Below, piece by piece: positions 3,693 through 20,081 of a stretch of 20,081 nt of DNA. The number at the start of each line of letters is the position of its first letter. Within the stretch, counting starts at the first letter, position 1. A model generated the notes under the pieces. It was not told the DNA's origin, made no database searches, and saw only the letters and a program-made list of their open reading frames with translations. Position numbers and translations under genes: made by a program. Origin of the DNA: a virus; the IMG/VR virus record IMGVR_UViG_3300025687_000446, positions 1-20,081 of that record; one strand, 5' to 3'.

Positions 3693-5185
3693 TTCAAGAA
3701 GCAATGTGGTGGCTCACGGATAGAGTGCATAGGCCAGCACCAGAGAATCCAAGCCCAAAGCAGAAGAAGCGTCGATATGATGGCGCGGCAGGTTCAAGAT
3801 TCCTGGCGGATTTTGTCGGCTCAACCACAAGCTCAGACGCAGAACTTCAATATTCGCTTAGACGTCTACGAGACAGAGCCAGAGAACTTTGCCGCAATGA
3901 TGACTACGCAAGACGTTACCTGCAACTGATGTCAAGCAATGTAGTTGGCGAGCATGGTTTCACGCTTCAGTCTCGCGCCAGAAATCTCAATGAGCCGAAT
4001 GTTGGACAGTTAGATGCTGCTGGGAACGAAATCATTGAGCGAGCGTTTCGACGTTGGGGCAAATCCTGTTCAGCAAATCAGCGTCAGTCTTGGCTAGATA
4101 TTCAGCGATTGGTCATTCAGGGACTTTGTCGCGATGGCGAGATTCTGATTCGTTTTGTTCGTGGGAAGCGTTGGCGTGATGGACTCGCGCTTCAGGTGCT
4201 AGAGCCGGATTACCTCGACGAAGAATATTTCACCACAGAGCCAAGAGGCAGAAGAGTGGTGATGGGTGTGGAACTCGACGAGTTCGACGCACCGCAAGCG
4301 TACTATCTCAAGCTTGGTCAAGGCCATCCGTTCGACACCTTTGGACAACGAAGAAGCGACAAAAGAACCAGAGTTCCAGCAGAGGAAATTCTGCACATTT
4401 ATTTGCCTGACCGAGCGCAACAAACCAGAGGCGTTACTTGGTTCGCATCAGCCATGTCACGAATGCGGATTCTCTCAGGTTATGAAGAAGCAGAACTGAT
4501 TGCTGCTCGAACCAGTGCCGCAAAAATGGGCTTCTTAGTTTCGCCTGATGGTGAAGGTTTCATTGGGGACGAATCGGCAGACGGCAATCAAATCATGTCT
4601 GGCGAGCCTGGAAGTATTCAGCAGTTGCCAGCAGGAATGAGCTTTCAAGAGTGGAATCCTAGCCATCCAACTTCAGCATATGCCGAATTTCATAAAGGTG
4701 TGCTTCGAGGCATTGCCAGTGGACTTGGCATTTCTTACACCAGCCTGTCAAACAACCTCGAAGGCGTTTCGTATTCGTCGATTCGTCAAGGTGCACTAGA
4801 AGAACGCGATTTATACCGTCAGATTCAAAGCTTTTTGATTCAGCACCTGTGCGAGCCAATCTGTCAAGAGTGGCTGAAAATGGCAATGACTTCCGGCTCA
4901 ATCCCAATCCCAATCACTCGCTACGACAAGTTCAGCAACACACTGGAATTCAGAGGCAGAGGTTTCAGTTGGGTGGACCCAGCAAAAGAGATCAGAGCAG
5001 AAGTCGAAGCAGTTAGAAATGGCTTCAAGTCACTGAATGACGTTGCCAGACAATACGGCAGAGACGTGGAAGAGGTGTTTCAGCAAATGCAGAACGACAA
5101 GGCAATGGCGGAACGCTACGGAATCAGTTTAGCCTTTGAGCCTTTAGGCAGTCCACACGGACCAGTTGAGCCAGAAGTCGAGTAA
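3689..5185 (+). CDS. Portal protein, lambda family
   Basis: This 498-aa protein should form the ring at the capsid vertex through which DNA enters and the tail attaches. It follows the lambda-type portal pattern: a polar N-terminal arm, then a helical region at residues 55-90 (RRLRDRARELCRN, DYARRYLQLMSSNVVG), the strand RDGEILIRF at 148-156, LEPDYLD at 171-177, and the signature IYLPDRAQQTRGVTWFAS around 237-254. The C-terminal half contains helical clip and stem-like segments and the usual GISYTSLSNNLEGVSYSS region. Its length is close to lambda gpB (533 aa). The ATG overlaps the previous stop and has an excellent AGGAGG ribosome site. It overlaps the following capsid gene by TAATG. No truncation is seen. 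Confidence 0.96.
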   Translation: MIQEAMWWLTDRVHRPAPENPSPKQKKRRYDGAAGSRFLADFVGSTTSSDAELQYSLRRLRDRARELCRNDDYARRYLQLMSSNVVGEHGFTLQSRARNLNEPNVGQLDAAGNEIIERAFRRWGKSCSANQRQSWLDIQRLVIQGLCRDGEILIRFVRGKRWRDGLALQVLEPDYLDEEYFTTEPRGRRVVMGVELDEFDAPQAYYLKLGQGHPFDTFGQRRSDKRTRVPAEEILHIYLPDRAQQTRGVTWFASAMSRMRILSGYEEAELIAARTSAAKMGFLVSPDGEGFIGDESADGNQIMSGEPGSIQQLPAGMSFQEWNPSHPTSAYAEFHKGVLRGIASGLGISYTSLSNNLEGVSYSSIRQGALEERDLYRQIQSFLIQHLCEPICQEWLKMAMTSGSIPIPITRYDKFSNTLEFRGRGFSWVDPAKEIRAEVEAVRNGFKSLNDVARQYGRDVEEVFQQMQNDKAMAERYGISLAFEPLGSPHGPVEPEVE

Positions 5186-7434
5186 TGGCAGAAAACCACA
5201 AGCCAACCGAGGGCATGATTGCCGAGGCAAACCGTGGCCTAGAGTGGAGACGAGAATTTGGACGAGGCGGAACCAGTGTCGGAATCGCTCGCGCCAGAGA
5301 CATCAGCAACGGCAAGAGTTTACCGTTGGCAACCGTGAAGAGGATGAAATCTTTTTTCGCTCGCCATGAAGTTGACAAAAAAGCCGAAGGTTTTCGACCA
5401 GGCGAAAAAGGTTATCCAAGCAACGGACGCATCGCCTGGGCTTTGTGGAGTGGGGATGCTGGCAAAAGTTGGAGTGAGAAAATCGTGAATCAAAGCGAGA
5501 GAAACATGGATTTAACTAGCATGACCGAAAGACACGTTATTGACGTCGAAGAGACTAACGACGAATACATTGTGGCGTTTGCCAAGGCTGAACAAGTCGC
5601 AGAAGAGCCGGAAGAGCGAGAAGTGGAACAAGTCGAGACAAGAGACTTACCAGTTCAAACTCAGTACCGAACCGGAAGCGTTCGCATGATGGATGACGAG
5701 TCAGACCGTCGAGTGATGATGAGCATTTCGTCAACGAATCCGGTTGAAAGAGAATTTGGCTATGAAGTTCTCGAACACAATGCCGGAAGCGTTGACATGG
5801 AATTCATGTCTTCAGGCAAAGCGCCACTGTTGTTGGACCATGACGCAAGGCAACAAATTGGAGTCGTAGAACGAGCCTATATGGACAACGACAAACTGAG
5901 AGCGCAAGTCCGGTTTAGCAAAAACGCAATGGCGGAAGAAGTTTATCGTGACGTAGTCGATGGGATTCGTGGCAACGTCTCAATCGGCTATCAGATTCAA
6001 GGAATGACGAAAGACGAGAACGGCTACAAAGACAAGCCGCTCTACAGAGTCAATATGTTTAAACCGCTCGAAGTGAGCATGGTTTCCATTCCTGCTGACT
6101 CCAGTGTTGGGGTAGGCAGATCCAAGCCGGAAATTTCCGGTAATGACAATTCTGCAATTCAGGAGAAAACAATGAGCGCAGAAGTAGTTCAAGAGCCGGT
6201 AAACACACGGCAACCAGAAGACCAACTGAAAGAGTACCGCAACCAAGCTTCTCAGATTCTCGAACTTGGTAAGCGGCATAACGAGTATGACTTGGCTTTC
6301 AGAGCACTTCAGGAAGAGAAAAGCCTAGCTGAATTCCAAGCCATGCTGCTTGAGAAGAAGACTTCCAAGCCAATCGACTTCAGCGTTGACGCCTCACCGA
6401 AAGAGAAGCGCAACTATTCCTTGGTGCGAGCAATCCGAGCCGCAGACCAGAAGGATTGGTCAAAAGCTGGTTTTGAAATGGAAATCAGCCAGGAACTCGC
6501 AAAGACGCAAAAGCGACAACCAAAAGGCTTTTTTGTGCCGGATTGGGGTTGGCAGACTCGAACGGTATCAACTGCAGCCGGAGCGACCTTTGGCGCAGGC
6601 TCAAATATCGTTCCAGAGGACTACCGAGGTGATCGCTTTATCGACGCCTTGATTTCAACCTCAATTCTTGGGCAAGTAGGCGCAACCGTGCTGAACGGTT
6701 TGCAAGGCAACGTGGCGATCCCCAAAATTAGCACCAGCACCGCGGCGGCTTTCATTGCGGAAGGTGGCTCAGTTGGAAATAGCGAGCCTGACTTCGCACA
6801 AGTCACCATGACGCCAAAGCTTTTGGCGAACAAAGTAGCCGTGACTCGCGAATTAATGATCCAGAGCGACCCATCTGTCGAGCAGTTGATTCGTAATAAC
6901 ATGGTTCGAATCTTCGCAGCCAAACTCGACAACGTGGCAATCAAAGGTGGTGGTTCAAACGAGCCAACCGGAATTCTCAGCACGGCTGGAATCGGGGACG
7001 TTTCCAGTGGCGGAACCAGTGGCAACGCGAACTTAAGCTATGGCAATGTCGTTGATATTATGACCGAAGTCAGTCAAGACAACGCTCTACTTGGAAACCT
7101 TCGCTGGGTAACTCATCCGGCAGTTGTGGGCAAACTGATGCAGACACTGGTTGCTTCCAGCACTGACTCGCGGATGATTATGCCAACACCGGATTCCATG
7201 CTTGGTTATCCAGTTGTTCAAACCACGCAAGCACCGAGTTCTTCACCGTACTCGCTGATTTTCGGCAACTGGTCAGACCTTTATGTGGGCTTCTTCTCAG
7301 CACTCGACGTACTGGTGGACCCATACTCCAGTGCCGGAACCGCAACGACCAATCTGTTCTTCTACCAAGATTGTGATATTGCGGTTGCTCATGCTGAAAG
7401 CTTCGCAGCAGCGCAGGACGTCACTGTCGCCTGA
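5185..7434 (+). CDS. HK97-type prohead protease fused to major capsid protein
   Basis: This 749-aa protein joins three parts in one frame. Residues 1-107 are a domain often seen before phage proteases (AEANRGLEWRREFGRGGT, then SFFARHEVDKKAEGF and GRIAWALWSGDAG). Residues 155-312 are an S78 prohead protease with the expected triad candidates H219 (LLLDHD), S266 (NVSIGY) and E296 (KPLEVSMV). A charged helical segment, about 330-450, could serve as scaffold (delta domain). Residues 455-749 are an HK97-fold capsid protein (VPEDYRGDRFIDAL, PKLLANKVAVTRELM, GGGSNEPTGIL, WVTHPAVV). In most phages these are separate genes. Met330 has its own strong ribosome site, so a free 420-aa capsid protein could also be made. 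There is no stop or frameshift between the parts. Self-cleavage at the junction is expected from the family. Confidence 0.93.
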   Translation: MAENHKPTEGMIAEANRGLEWRREFGRGGTSVGIARARDISNGKSLPLATVKRMKSFFARHEVDKKAEGFRPGEKGYPSNGRIAWALWSGDAGKSWSEKIVNQSERNMDLTSMTERHVIDVEETNDEYIVAFAKAEQVAEEPEEREVEQVETRDLPVQTQYRTGSVRMMDDESDRRVMMSISSTNPVEREFGYEVLEHNAGSVDMEFMSSGKAPLLLDHDARQQIGVVERAYMDNDKLRAQVRFSKNAMAEEVYRDVVDGIRGNVSIGYQIQGMTKDENGYKDKPLYRVNMFKPLEVSMVSIPADSSVGVGRSKPEISGNDNSAIQEKTMSAEVVQEPVNTRQPEDQLKEYRNQASQILELGKRHNEYDLAFRALQEEKSLAEFQAMLLEKKTSKPIDFSVDASPKEKRNYSLVRAIRAADQKDWSKAGFEMEISQELAKTQKRQPKGFFVPDWGWQTRTVSTAAGATFGAGSNIVPEDYRGDRFIDALISTSILGQVGATVLNGLQGNVAIPKISTSTAAAFIAEGGSVGNSEPDFAQVTMTPKLLANKVAVTRELMIQSDPSVEQLIRNNMVRIFAAKLDNVAIKGGGSNEPTGILSTAGIGDVSSGGTSGNANLSYGNVVDIMTEVSQDNALLGNLRWVTHPAVVGKLMQTLVASSTDSRMIMPTPDSMLGYPVVQTTQAPSSSPYSLIFGNWSDLYVGFFSALDVLVDPYSSAGTATTNLFFYQDCDIAVAHAESFAAAQDVTVA
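6161..6174 (+). promoter_or_regulatory. Internal ribosome binding site and in-frame ATG for the capsid part
   Basis: AGGAG at 6161-6165 is followed by a 6-base AT-rich spacer and ATG at 6172-6174, in frame with the fusion at Met330. It is one of the best ribosome sites in the window and sits exactly at the border between the protease domain and the scaffold/capsid segment. It would give a 420-aa protein starting MSAEVVQEP. This start is inferred from sequence; use of both starts would set a protease to capsid ratio. Confidence 0.7.
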
Positions 7435-17041: not shown

Positions 17042-17994
17042 AAATTATCTACACCAATGCAATCACAGGCATCAGCAGTTCAGCCAGTCACTTATCAGCA
17101 GATTATGCGATTGCCAAAACTGAGAACAATTATCCCAAGCAGCCATACATTGCGAACGCAACAAGTGGGACGATTACCGTTACCTGTCCAGGTGCTGAAG
17201 CGATTTTCTTCAGTTATCTTGCGGAAGCTGTGACTGTAACATTCAAGGATTCTGGAGCCTCTACGCTTTCAACTGAGACTTATTCCAATAGCTACACACT
17301 GAGCGAATACTATCTGTTAAACGAAAAGACACACTGGAATGATTCGGTATTTGTAGCTTGTCCAGCGACGACCAACACGGTTGAGATTGCCTTGTCAAAT
17401 TCAACTGATGTCAAAGGAACTTTGGACGGTTGGGTCACAGGATCTTCAGGCCAGTTGGGAAGACTTCAGGCCAGCAGTACAAATATTTATCTGGAAGAAT
17501 ATCCACAAATTAAACTTGGGGCGTTTGTCAATTCGGCACAAATCAACCGAATCACGGGAGACGGGACCGGAACAACAGATTTGCAACTAACCACAGGCGG
17601 AGATTCCAGTTTTAGCGTCACTTCAATGACGCTGCCTGTTGTTGTGAACACCATTCGAGCTGGGAAAGTGCTGGAAACTTATAATCCAAACGTGGGTATG
17701 TCGATCAGCAGAGACTCGCTAGGAATCAAACAAGAACGTGATTCAGGTTTGGTCTACCGTTTGGGCGAGATTCGCAGACGATTCACTGGTTCGGTTCAGG
17801 TCTTAGAATCAGAGAGAGACACCGCAACCAAGGTGTTTTCTGGCTTACGAATGCAACCTGTTGCTGCTGAGATTCTGGGCTATCAAACCAACACCGCAGT
17901 TTTTGGTAGCTTCTTTGAGCCTGCTTCCATTGCCTACAGTTACCAAGGAAGTCAGCTTTATGATTACAACTTTGAATTTATTGAACTGATATGA
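17038..17994 (+). CDS. Tail-tip or distal tail structural protein
   Basis: This 318-aa protein is mainly beta-sheet with high Ser/Thr. Its middle (GTLDGWVTGSSGQLGRLQAS and YLEEYPQIKLGAFVNSAQI) and C-terminal half (RLGEIRRRFTGSVQVLESER, then ATKVFSGLRMQPVAAEIL) suggest a tail scaffold component rather than an enzyme. The ending, YSYQGSQLYDYNFEFIELI, is typical of proteins that hold a beta-barrel core. It has no recognisable family name from the sequence alone. It is coupled by ATGA to both the gene before and the fibre-like gene after it, so it is likely made in the same amount as other tail-tip parts. Confidence 0.5.
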   Translation: MKIIYTNAITGISSSASHLSADYAIAKTENNYPKQPYIANATSGTITVTCPGAEAIFFSYLAEAVTVTFKDSGASTLSTETYSNSYTLSEYYLLNEKTHWNDSVFVACPATTNTVEIALSNSTDVKGTLDGWVTGSSGQLGRLQASSTNIYLEEYPQIKLGAFVNSAQINRITGDGTGTTDLQLTTGGDSSFSVTSMTLPVVVNTIRAGKVLETYNPNVGMSISRDSLGIKQERDSGLVYRLGEIRRRFTGSVQVLESERDTATKVFSGLRMQPVAAEILGYQTNTAVFGSFFEPASIAYSYQGSQLYDYNFEFIELI

Positions 17995-18677
17995 GCCTTC
18001 TAAAAGTCAATGAGCTTCAGGTTTTTAATGGCTCGACGATTACACTGACGGCAACAACGGTTGCGACATCCAGTGTTTTTAATACGGGTGGACAACTGAA
18101 TGTTACTGGTGCAATCACGGTCACGGATGCCAGCACCACCAGAACAAACTTGGGTCTTGGCACAATCGCAACGCAAGCGGCTGATTCGGTAAATATTGAC
18201 GGAGGCGCGATTGACGCTGTGACGATTGGGACAAATTCAGCCGTCACTGATTTGCGAGTCGATAATCTACAACTCGACGGCAACACGATCAGCAGCACAA
18301 ATACAGACGGAAATATTACGCTGGACCCAAACGGCACGGGTAACGTTTCAATTGGAAATTTTTCCTTTGACGCAGACCAAACCGTTGGCGCAGGTCAGGA
18401 CAATTATGTTTTAACCTATGATGACGCTACTGGACTGATCAGCTTGGAAGCTTCTGCTGGTGGAGGTGGTGGCTCTGGAAGTAGCTATATCGAACACAGC
18501 GACACAGTTTCAGACTCTTTGGCGATCAGCAGTGGAACCAATCGTATGTATGTTGGCAACACAACCTTTACGGGTAGCGGAACGATGGCAGGTTATTTAG
18601 TGGTCAGTCACGGTTTTGCAAATTTTACTGGGACGGTTAATGTCGATACATCAGGCACTCTTAAAGTGGTGAGTTAA
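17991..18677 (+). CDS. Fibre-like tail protein
   Basis: This 228-aa protein is low in complexity and rich in Thr, Ser, Gly, Asn and Asp. It contains NLGLGTIATQAADSVNIDGG, a pattern often seen in tail fibres of environmental phages, and further short repeats (LRVDNLQLDGN, ITLDPNGTGNVSIG) that suggest a triple beta-helix shaft. A poly-Gly linker lies at residues 157-161, before a compact C-terminal part (residues 166-228). The N-terminus (MSLLKVNELQV) is like the attachment tip of short fibre proteins. It sits directly before the DGR variable protein and may carry or hold it. It has no catalytic motif. Confidence 0.65.
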   Translation: MSLLKVNELQVFNGSTITLTATTVATSSVFNTGGQLNVTGAITVTDASTTRTNLGLGTIATQAADSVNIDGGAIDAVTIGTNSAVTDLRVDNLQLDGNTISSTNTDGNITLDPNGTGNVSIGNFSFDADQTVGAGQDNYVLTYDDATGLISLEASAGGGGGSGSSYIEHSDTVSDSLAISSGTNRMYVGNTTFTGSGTMAGYLVVSHGFANFTGTVNVDTSGTLKVVS

Positions 18678-18679
18678 AT

Positions 18680-19858
18680 ATGGCAGGTGAAATTCAACTA
18701 AACAGTGTGACTTTAGCCACTGAATCCGGTGGTCTAATCAGCTTTGGGGGTTCGGTTCAGGCCGTTCCGCCTACAATCCCCAACTGGTATTTAGCCGAGC
18801 AGCAAATCACAGGTGGAAATGATGTCAGTGCTGGATTTTATGCTGGTTCTGCTACAGCTTCAGAAAGGCGGACAGTAAATATTCCGGCTGTGCAACTACA
18901 AATCAACGCCACTGTTTACACACTTTCGACTGCTACCACACTGGACGCAGACACAACAGGTTCTTGGGCGAGTAATGAAACCTCCAAAGCAACAGCAGCA
19001 AACCGCAATGGAGAGGATGTCTATATTTATGCGGTAGAACCTAGTTCGGGAACCACTCCAAATTTCTGCTTAAGCTCCAATTCTACCTATCCTGATGGAA
19101 CGGTTGGAGGTGTGACAGCCAGTGCCACAAACTCTCGCAAGATTGGCGGATTCCACTGTCTGTGTGTTGATGTTGGGACAATTAGTGGGCACTCCCTAAC
19201 AGGTTACCTCGATGGGGATATTCTGCCTCGAAGTGTCTGGACACAAGCGCAACATCGTCCAACTTCAAGTCCAGAAGGAATGGTTTATGTGGGTAATAAA
19301 CTTTGGGCGGATATTTACTTAGCCAGTAATACCACAACGCTGGAATCCAGTTACGGTGGAACCATCGTTGATGGGGCAAGCAACCCCGATTATCACTGGT
19401 ATAATTTTGTAGAGAGATTTGCGGAAATCGACAAAAGACTCCCCACACAAGCCGAGTTTATGGCTCTAGCTATTGGCAGCAATGAAGAAACCAATATCAG
19501 TGGATCAGCAGACCCTGGAACGACTGGAGGCCACAGTGACACAGCTAGTCGCAGAATGATCTCAAATGTCGGGTGTGAAGACTGTGCAGGCGCATTGTGG
19601 CAATGGGCCAATGAAACCGGATCTGACGGTGGTGCAGCTAGTTGGGCAGTTCAAGACACCGCCTCCGACGGAACGACATACGATGGAGCTAATTCTATCG
19701 GTCGGGGTCAAGGATACTCAGTTCCAAATCGCGGGCTCGTGGGCGGCGATTTTAACGATGGCGCGAAGTGCGGGTCGCGCGGTGTCGGTTGGTATTATTC
19801 ACCTTTGATTCTCGACGGCAACGTCGGGTCGCGCGGAGTTAGTGGGAGTCTGTACTAA
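18680..19858 (+). CDS. DGR variable protein with FGE/C-type lectin-like fold, likely tail receptor-binding protein
   Basis: This 392-aa protein has an N-terminal segment (about 1-45) that may attach to the tail, a Ser/Thr-rich beta middle (about 60-185), and a C-terminal FGE-sulfatase or C-type-lectin-like domain from about 195. In that domain, RLPTQAEFMALAIG (253-266) and SNVGCEDCAGALWQW (295-309) correspond to the usual RLPTEAEW and GNVWEW blocks. The last 40 codons before LY-stop (residues 351-390) are the variable repeat. Two GSRGV motifs lie in that part, at 365-369 and 383-387. No key FGE catalytic Cys pattern is claimed: the fold in DGR proteins serves binding, not catalysis. The start is ATG 18680, three bases after the fibre stop, with a weak GGTGAG ribosome site. 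It would be exposed on the tail and vary host recognition. RT-driven change of the last 40 codons is inferred from the repeat pair. Confidence 0.88.
   Translation: MAGEIQLNSVTLATESGGLISFGGSVQAVPPTIPNWYLAEQQITGGNDVSAGFYAGSATASERRTVNIPAVQLQINATVYTLSTATTLDADTTGSWASNETSKATAANRNGEDVYIYAVEPSSGTTPNFCLSSNSTYPDGTVGGVTASATNSRKIGGFHCLCVDVGTISGHSLTGYLDGDILPRSVWTQAQHRPTSSPEGMVYVGNKLWADIYLASNTTTLESSYGGTIVDGASNPDYHWYNFVERFAEIDKRLPTQAEFMALAIGSNEETNISGSADPGTTGGHSDTASRRMISNVGCEDCAGALWQWANETGSDGGAASWAVQDTASDGTTYDGANSIGRGQGYSVPNRGLVGGDFNDGAKCGSRGVGWYYSPLILDGNVGSRGVSGSLY
19730..19849 (+). repeat. DGR variable repeat (VR), 120 bp
   Basis: This segment matches the repeat at 19904-20023 with no gaps (offset 174). 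It differs at 27 of 120 positions, and 22 of those differences fall at adenines of the other copy: 17 A to G, 4 A to T, 1 A to C. It starts exactly at a codon boundary of the variable protein and ends 6 codon bases plus stop before the gene end. The five other differences are at 19752, 19753, 19770, 19840 and 19849. The last two may mark the initiation-of-homing end, where VR and TR often differ. Confidence 0.94.
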
Positions 19859-19868
19859 TTTTAAAAGT

Positions 19869-19881
19869 CCCTCTGGGAGGG
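19869..19881 (+). promoter_or_regulatory. Short GC hairpin just after the variable gene
   Basis: CCCTC (19869-19873) is complementary to GAGGG (19877-19881) around a TGG loop. It lies 11 bases after the stop codon and 20 after the end of the VR. In studied DGRs, such as that of Bordetella phage BPP-1, a hairpin or cruciform just after VR helps retrohoming. This stem is shorter than the usual ones. No T-run follows, so a simple terminator is less likely. Confidence 0.5.
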
Positions 19882-19903
19882 TGAGGCAGTACCGTTGTTA
19901 CAG

Positions 19904-20023
19904 CACGGGATCGTGGGCAGCAATTGGAACAATGGCACGAAATCCAGGTCACGCAGTGTCAATTGGAATAATTCACCTTTGAATCTCAACGACAACATCG
20001 GGTCACGCAGAGACAGTGAGAGG
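19904..20023 (+). repeat. DGR template repeat (TR), 120 bp
   Basis: The template copy lies 45 bases after the stop of the variable protein gene, in the same orientation, in the canonical VR-then-TR order. Read in the VR frame it has no stop and nine AAY (Asn) codons; seven of these have changed in VR. AAY codons can be varied at the first two bases without making stops, a known design of DGR templates. It has 38 adenines, 22 of which differ in VR, against 5 of 82 other bases. No coding gene covers this stretch. The transcript would also act as the template RNA for a reverse transcriptase expected further right. Confidence 0.94.
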
Positions 20024-20081
20024 GCCACAACACCACTGGCTGGCTGGCTCACCTTGGCTTTTGCCAAAATACACAACGGTG
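20024..20081 (+). other. Region after TR, with tetranucleotide repeat and short hairpin
   Basis: TGGC occurs three times in tandem at 20037-20048. TTGGC (20054-20058) pairs with GCCAA (20063-20067) around a TTTT loop. In known DGRs the segment between TR and the reverse transcriptase forms part of the functional template RNA, so these may be structural elements of it. No gene can be read in the 58 bases, and the window ends here. Confidence 0.45.

Follow-up and report, generated by a model that had tools for sequence, protein, structure and literature searches.

We find that the window, our name for the whole 20,081-nucleotide stretch of viral DNA analyzed here, carries the two repeats of a BPP-1-type diversity-generating retroelement (DGR). 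We are highly confident of a joint reading in which the reverse transcriptase (RT) of this element is fused to a small protein, termed PKHLN, its cassette has most likely spread recently as one unit in older phage backbones, and alleles of its target gene, mtd, recombine. The assignment to the BPP-1 type, which upholds the DGR proposed in the initial annotation, follows from differences between the variable repeat (VR) and template repeat (TR) that concentrate at template adenines, from a target of the Mtd family with VR at its C-terminal end, and from an adjacent RT that has the motif YVDD and matches the Bordetella RT (bRT), read in L001, a locus identical to the window over 7402 bp, and in its near-copy L002.

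Repeat pair and target gene

The features of the window and the RT of L001 are the following:

5185-7434: open reading frame (ORF) of 749 aa with prohead protease (Peptidase_S78) and capsid domains together
17991..18677, + strand: ORF of 228 aa directly upstream of the target, matching phrog_15769 (function unknown) at 2.6e-7
18680..19858, + strand: target gene, Mtd-like receptor-binding tail protein of 392 aa, VR at the C-terminal end
19730..19849, + strand: VR, variable repeat, 120 nt
19826..19849, + strand: IMH-like 3' segment of VR, place and function putative
19869..19881, no strand given: short inverted repeat after the stop codon, with a 5-bp stem and a 3-nt loop (TGG), a weak candidate for a target hairpin
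19904..20023, + strand: TR, template repeat; identity to the other TRs of its clade, 96.7-100%
20024..20081, + strand: first part of the TR-RT spacer, truncated where the record stops; the spacer has 102-103 nt and is nearly invariant in the nine loci listed
7447-8736 in L001: RT ORF, 429 aa

A recount reproduces every number given initially for the two 120-nt repeats, which lie 54 nt apart at the positions listed. Twenty-seven of the 120 positions differ between them, 22 at the 38 TR adenines and five at the 82 other bases (hypergeometric P 1.2e-9), the same counts as before, and no VR/TR difference falls on any adenine of VR. The repeats have 93/120 bases in common; the second-best ungapped match to VR in the window, on both strands, reaches 50/120. 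Read in the frame of VR, the TR gives abundant Asn codons, in keeping with the AAY-rich template described earlier, and VR closes the 392-aa ORF, as expected of the C-terminal end of a protein that it had been taken to be. Among the non-adenine differences, the C-to-G change at 19770 falls on the base where the TR of the window, L001 and L002 departs from the TRs of 11 other loci. The C-to-T change at 19840 and the G-to-T change at 19849 lie in the 3' segment of VR (positions 111 and 120), where VR and TR differ in 10/10 distinct pairs. The sole non-adenine difference left without explanation is the adjacent GG-to-TT (TR to VR) at 19752-19753, which among 14 VR/TR pairs is confined to the window and its near-copies L001 and L002.

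The target protein matches Pfam PF21916 (mtd_2nd, 6e-14, aa 102-187), the tail protein family phrog_11262 of PHROGs (1.6e-54) and, in the PDB, Mtd of BPP-1 (1yu4, 2.5e-22, aa 147-389). Judged by these matches, it is an Mtd homologue with VR at its C-terminal end, so that the lectin-like domain assigned to it at first is refined to the Mtd family. The remainder of the window is a tailed-phage module for head and tail, with large terminase, small terminase, portal, protease-capsid and tape measure genes. Roseobacter phages account for the six best terminase matches (48-53%), which gives no more than a lead to the host. Further downstream, L001 has integrase and CI-type repressor genes, and the phage is therefore probably temperate.

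The reverse transcriptase beyond the end of the record

The RT family (RVT_1) has no match in the 20,081 bases of the window, since its record breaks off 58 nt past the TR. A scan of IMG/VR, whose entries here are metagenome contigs, many of them short, returned 29 loci with the target as query. Over the 7402 bp that lead up to the last base of the window, L001 matches it with 100.000% identity and L002 with 99.986%. Beyond that point both carry a 429-aa RT ORF that starts 271 nt past the end of the target match, placing an RT within several kb, where the initial annotation had proposed to look for one. Residues 2-320 of the L001 RT match bRT (PDB 8ub7) with an E value of 1.5e-58. The protein has the motifs YVDD and PIGNYTSQ. 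An alignment of 28 RTs, that of BPP-1 among them, shows no variation at the DD of the active site or at the PIG...SQ residues. The records of the window (20081), L012 (5982) and L013 (7396) all stop 54-58 nt past the TR; these ends are perhaps assembly breaks where shared cassette sequence begins.

By analogy with BPP-1, the TR would be transcribed together with the conserved spacer, the RT would copy this RNA with errors opposite adenines, and the cDNA would replace VR as far as the IMH-like 3' segment and so alter the surface with which the tail protein binds its receptor.

Comparison with known DGRs

The BPP-1 DGR (mtd-VR, avd/bbp7, TR, brt) shares with the present element an Mtd target with a C-terminal VR, the gene order target-TR-RT, an RT alignable over residues 2-320, and a TR and VR that differ at the 3' end. 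Unlike in BPP-1, where the avd gene bbp7 lies between VR and TR, only 54 nt and no avd separate the repeats here; the RT is longer by a C-terminal 100-aa protein; and no strong 8-bp hairpin follows VR. Caudoviricetes sp. vir525, a Methanosarcinales virus, is the top-listed annotated relative of both target and RT (tail protein with Mtd, 51.1% over 65% of the query; RT, 47.0% over 75%). Its order of tail protein, RT and small ORFs is that found here, but its RT of 339 aa is unfused and is followed by a separate 95-aa ORF. The DGR of Chromohalobacter phage YPCBV-1 likewise combines an Mtd-like target (33.6%) with an RT, but it has an annotated Avd (PF22296, 5.7e-16).

In our loci, the Avd model PF22296 matched none of 13 records, which are possibly fragments; the same model does detect the Avd of BPP-1 and YPCBV-1. 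Searches by tblastn with these two Avd proteins against the fetched loci matched only in their own two records. Passages of two papers describe Avd as essential in BPP-1 (PMC6642488, PMC12875486), and according to a passage of another, an Avd-like domain co-occurs with 62% of DGR RTs and is thus not universal (PMC8934634).

At the 3' end of the repeats, VR differs from TR in 10/10 distinct pairs at TR positions 102, 106, 110, 111, 116 and 120, as expected if this part is an IMH and is not copied. VR would accordingly contain an IMH and TR a differing IMH*, with the function assigned from BPP-1. The short inverted repeat after VR occurs in 10/10 spacers listed. Folding against shuffles gave z 0.14 for 19848-19903 and z -0.71 for 19868-19890, as compared with z -5.14 in the same test for the 8-bp hairpin of BPP-1, and detected no GC-rich hairpin like that of BPP-1 (8-bp stem, GRNA loop) just past VR. 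The BPP-1 hairpin raises efficiency, as stated in part of PMC3240598, and we do not treat such a hairpin as defining for all DGRs. The lack of an Avd match in those 13 records and of a strong hairpin both weigh against our reading.

A fusion of the reverse transcriptase to PKHLN

In the clade of the window, the RT continues in frame into a 100-aa protein, which we label PKHLN after its motif. The fused frame is open in all 12 clade contigs that reach the junction (11 loci and L037), including the near-duplicates L001/L002, L004/L005 and L016/L017. In six contigs with no cassette at this site (L006, L007, L009, L011, L014 and L018, where L009 equals L011 and L006 nearly equals L014), PKHLN has a gene of its own, with its start 15-18 nt past the mtd stop codon. 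Because these six contigs are partial, their genomes may have a cassette elsewhere.

To place the fusion among its relatives, we scanned for PKHLN and obtained 95 relatives, of which 80 were kept and 78, contig fragments included, were tabulated. An Mtd homologue is found in 73 of the 78 loci; 55 have an RT match of at least 150 aa, one has an RT remnant and 22 have no RT. Outside the clade of the window, 35 of the 55 RT loci have a gap of 280-350 nt between the RT match and PKHLN. When 25 of these 35 gaps were checked for an ORF by a crude pick, 17 held a full-length member of one family (95-104 aa) and eight a fragment or another frame. The RT, the small ORF and PKHLN of L058 all lie in a single open frame that ends at 4586, a fusion that apparently arose independently. 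A 77-kb relative, L099 (IMGVR_UViG_2936390555_000003), has its RT at 3697-4716, the small ORF at 4717-5000 and the PKHLN gene at 5001-5330. A single in-frame TAG interrupts the RT gene and another the PKHLN gene, each ahead of the gene's end, and the small ORF has one in-frame stop, its type not listed; L099 is perhaps a TAG-recoded phage or else carries several nonsense mutations. A single genome scan added seven prokaryote contigs with PKHLN relatives (L111-L117).

The predicted model of PKHLN alone has a pLDDT of 93.2, and it had no match to solved folds at E <= 0.001. Two members had no match in Pfam, PHROGs or NCBIfam, phage records gave no function match for one member, and a single match was to an uncharacterised viral model (E 3.7e-4). 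In BPP-1, the 3' end of brt is overlapped by bbp4, an 82-aa gene whose resemblance to PKHLN is weak (4.7 bits), a score at which homology is suggestive only; a literature search for bbp4 found nothing.

The fusion could be a neutral loss of a stop codon, with PKHLN still made mainly from its own internal start codon, and we rate the chances of this as slightly better than even. An AAGGAG stands 9 nt before an internal ATG of PKHLN in 11/11 fused loci listed, as does a GGAG 7 nt before it in L058, so that the protein may also be made alone, and PKHLN is conserved whether fused or free. When the entire fusion is modeled, confidence is high for the RT, low for the joint at 331-335 and poor for PKHLN, which few rows cover. 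Against a neutral loss stand the frame that stays open in every clade contig reaching the junction and the apparently independent single frame of L058.

Among the few papers returned by literature searches on such fusions, no title or abstract opening reports one between a DGR RT and a phage protein. A DGR survey (PMC8144416) uses none of 'fusion', 'fused' and 'Avd' in its main text, and 'fusion' and 'fused' are likewise absent from PMC6642488. PMC8934634 treats domain fusions across classes of RT, and the 12 of its 59 passages covered here mention none in the RTs of DGRs.

A cassette probably younger than its phage backbones

We compared synonymous divergence in 12 hand-chosen pairs of cassette-bearing loci, taking mtd before VR. 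In all 12 pairs, dS of the RT (0.015-0.073) is below that of mtd (0.226-0.733) and of PKHLN (0.34-1.144); the ratio of mtd to RT ranges from 3.6 to 31, with a middle value of about ten. The RT has a dN of 0.000-0.004. An alignment of eight loci, scanned in 50-nt windows, gave a pairwise difference of 0.06-0.25 through mtd before VR and of 0.00-0.034 from the end of VR to the end of the RT, a block of low divergence that is sharply bounded. Diversity climbs across the start codon of PKHLN, whose first variable site lies in its third codon. Further out on both sides the difference is 0.15-0.53, where unrelated genes may be aligned. The mtd tree mixes cassette-bearing and cassette-less rows and joins L010 (with) and L009 (without) as sisters at 100/100; support is low, with 3/9 forks well supported for mtd (5/9 inner forks open) and 1/8 for PKHLN.

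The simplest reading of these data is that one founder cassette (spacer-TR-spacer-RT) would have spread recently, and as a whole, into phage backbones that are older and more varied than it, its flanks being exchanged by recombination. Frequent DGR transfer between genomes has already been reported at large scale, in a part of PMC8144416. Low divergence of the cassette could come partly from RNA constraint or gene conversion. That constraint at the nucleotide level, in place of recent spread, accounts for the low TR-RT divergence seems unlikely to us. According to part of PMC12875486, the TR and spacer of BPP-1 act as functional RNA, and the end of the TR together with the spacer folds somewhat better here than shuffles do (z -2.08), but the low divergence spans the whole 987-nt RT coding region, synonymous sites included, and identity drops to 41-53% for the RTs of IMG/VR relatives that are more distant. 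Recent spread of a founder cassette is thus the reading we retain.

Cassettes also seem to decay. L020 retains, at 5140-5680, a VR, a TR-like repeat and an RT reduced to its C-terminal third, and L100 an RT match of 38 aa.

Adenine specificity and signs of activity

We read 14 VR/TR pairs, 10 of them distinct (window = L001 = L002; L012 = L013; L016 = L017). Over all positions of the 10 distinct pairs, 238/379 adenine cells differ, as against 34/821 non-adenine cells; within positions 1-96 the counts are 198/309 and 10/651, so that variation across related genomes sits at template adenines, as the initial annotation had anticipated. Among the 10 VRs, 26/31 adenine positions in this segment are variable, compared with 10/65 others. 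The changes at adenines are to G in 171 cases, to T in 47 and to C in 20. In E. coli, C accounts for 59.3% of the errors of bRT according to part of PMC12875486, which also cites in vitro data favoring misincorporation of A; the direction of the G excess agrees with the C misincorporation described there. At TR position 48 (window 19951; VR 19777), an adenine at a third codon position, none of 14 VRs listed, from loci with or without a cassette, has an A (13 G, 1 T), which reflects either a strong context bias or an old difference.

Closely related loci point to recent activity of the DGR. L004 and L005 differ at seven of 13,329 sites, and two of the seven are TR-adenine positions of VR (binomial P 1.7e-4 for at least two of seven differences within 38 positions). 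L010 and L009 have 955 identical bases in mtd, ending just inside VR, and differ within VR positions 1-96 at 9/31 adenine and 2/65 non-adenine positions. Both pairs lend indirect support to RT-dependent mutagenic retrohoming, which we infer from these sequence comparisons. Were the DGR now inactive and the VR differences old, a reading we regard as very improbable, the direct succession of mtd and PKHLN in 6/6 clade contigs without the cassette and the RT remnants of L020 and L100 would be readily accommodated. It would accord poorly with an RT whose dN is so far below its dS and whose active-site residues are conserved, with the two adenine differences between the near-identical L004 and L005, and with adenine changes between L010 and L009 directly after an identical stretch of mtd. 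An ordinary tandem duplication diverged by point mutation, for which two direct repeats sharing most of their bases might be mistaken, can be dismissed given the adenine asymmetry of the VR/TR differences in 14 pairs, the nearly constant TR beside hypervariable VRs and the adjacent RT.

Probable exchange of tail alleles

Exact matching reveals mosaic blocks around mtd, in coordinates that place VR at 1050-1169. L007 and L009, both without a cassette at this site, are identical except for one mismatch in two blocks, the first reaching from 1112 nt upstream of mtd as far as position 115 and the second spanning 1144-2551; between these blocks their mtd alleles differ. The mtd allele of L009 is the one that shares 955 nt with the cassette-bearing L010, yet it sits in an L007-type backbone that has no cassette there. 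L010 and L021 are identical over 1170-2661, and L015 and L016 over 1135-2003; each of these pairs has different mtd alleles and a common cassette side. Since VR spans 1050-1169, the three right-hand block edges fall within the final 35 nt of VR or exactly where it ends, and because the DGR rewrites VR, the crossover could sit anywhere from the start of VR to the edge. A swap of mtd with its edge in VR leaves the cassette behind. These mosaics suggest that recombination carries mtd alleles between phages that have a cassette at the site and phages that lack one there, presumably to the latter.

A more far-reaching interpretation is that the spacer-TR-spacer-RT block is itself mobile and has a single insertion site, between the 3' end of mtd and the start codon of PKHLN, which it enters perhaps through its RT and IMH, with PKHLN captured as an RT domain. 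The block would then also be a shared diversity generator, because tail alleles mutated by it pass to phages that lack it. We consider this interpretation as a whole doubtful, and favor the recent spread of one cassette among recombining backbones.

The DGR itself is of a known kind; less usual is a natural set of otherwise similar phages, some of which have the cassette at one and the same site while others lack it there. The fusion of RT and PKHLN names a specific candidate partner for a DGR RT found without Avd. Overall, the data suggest a mutator that is spreading as a young unit and whose new tail alleles reach phages without it. Metagenomes already available could be used to ask whether a carrier keeps the advantage of its DGR to itself or shares it through recombination.
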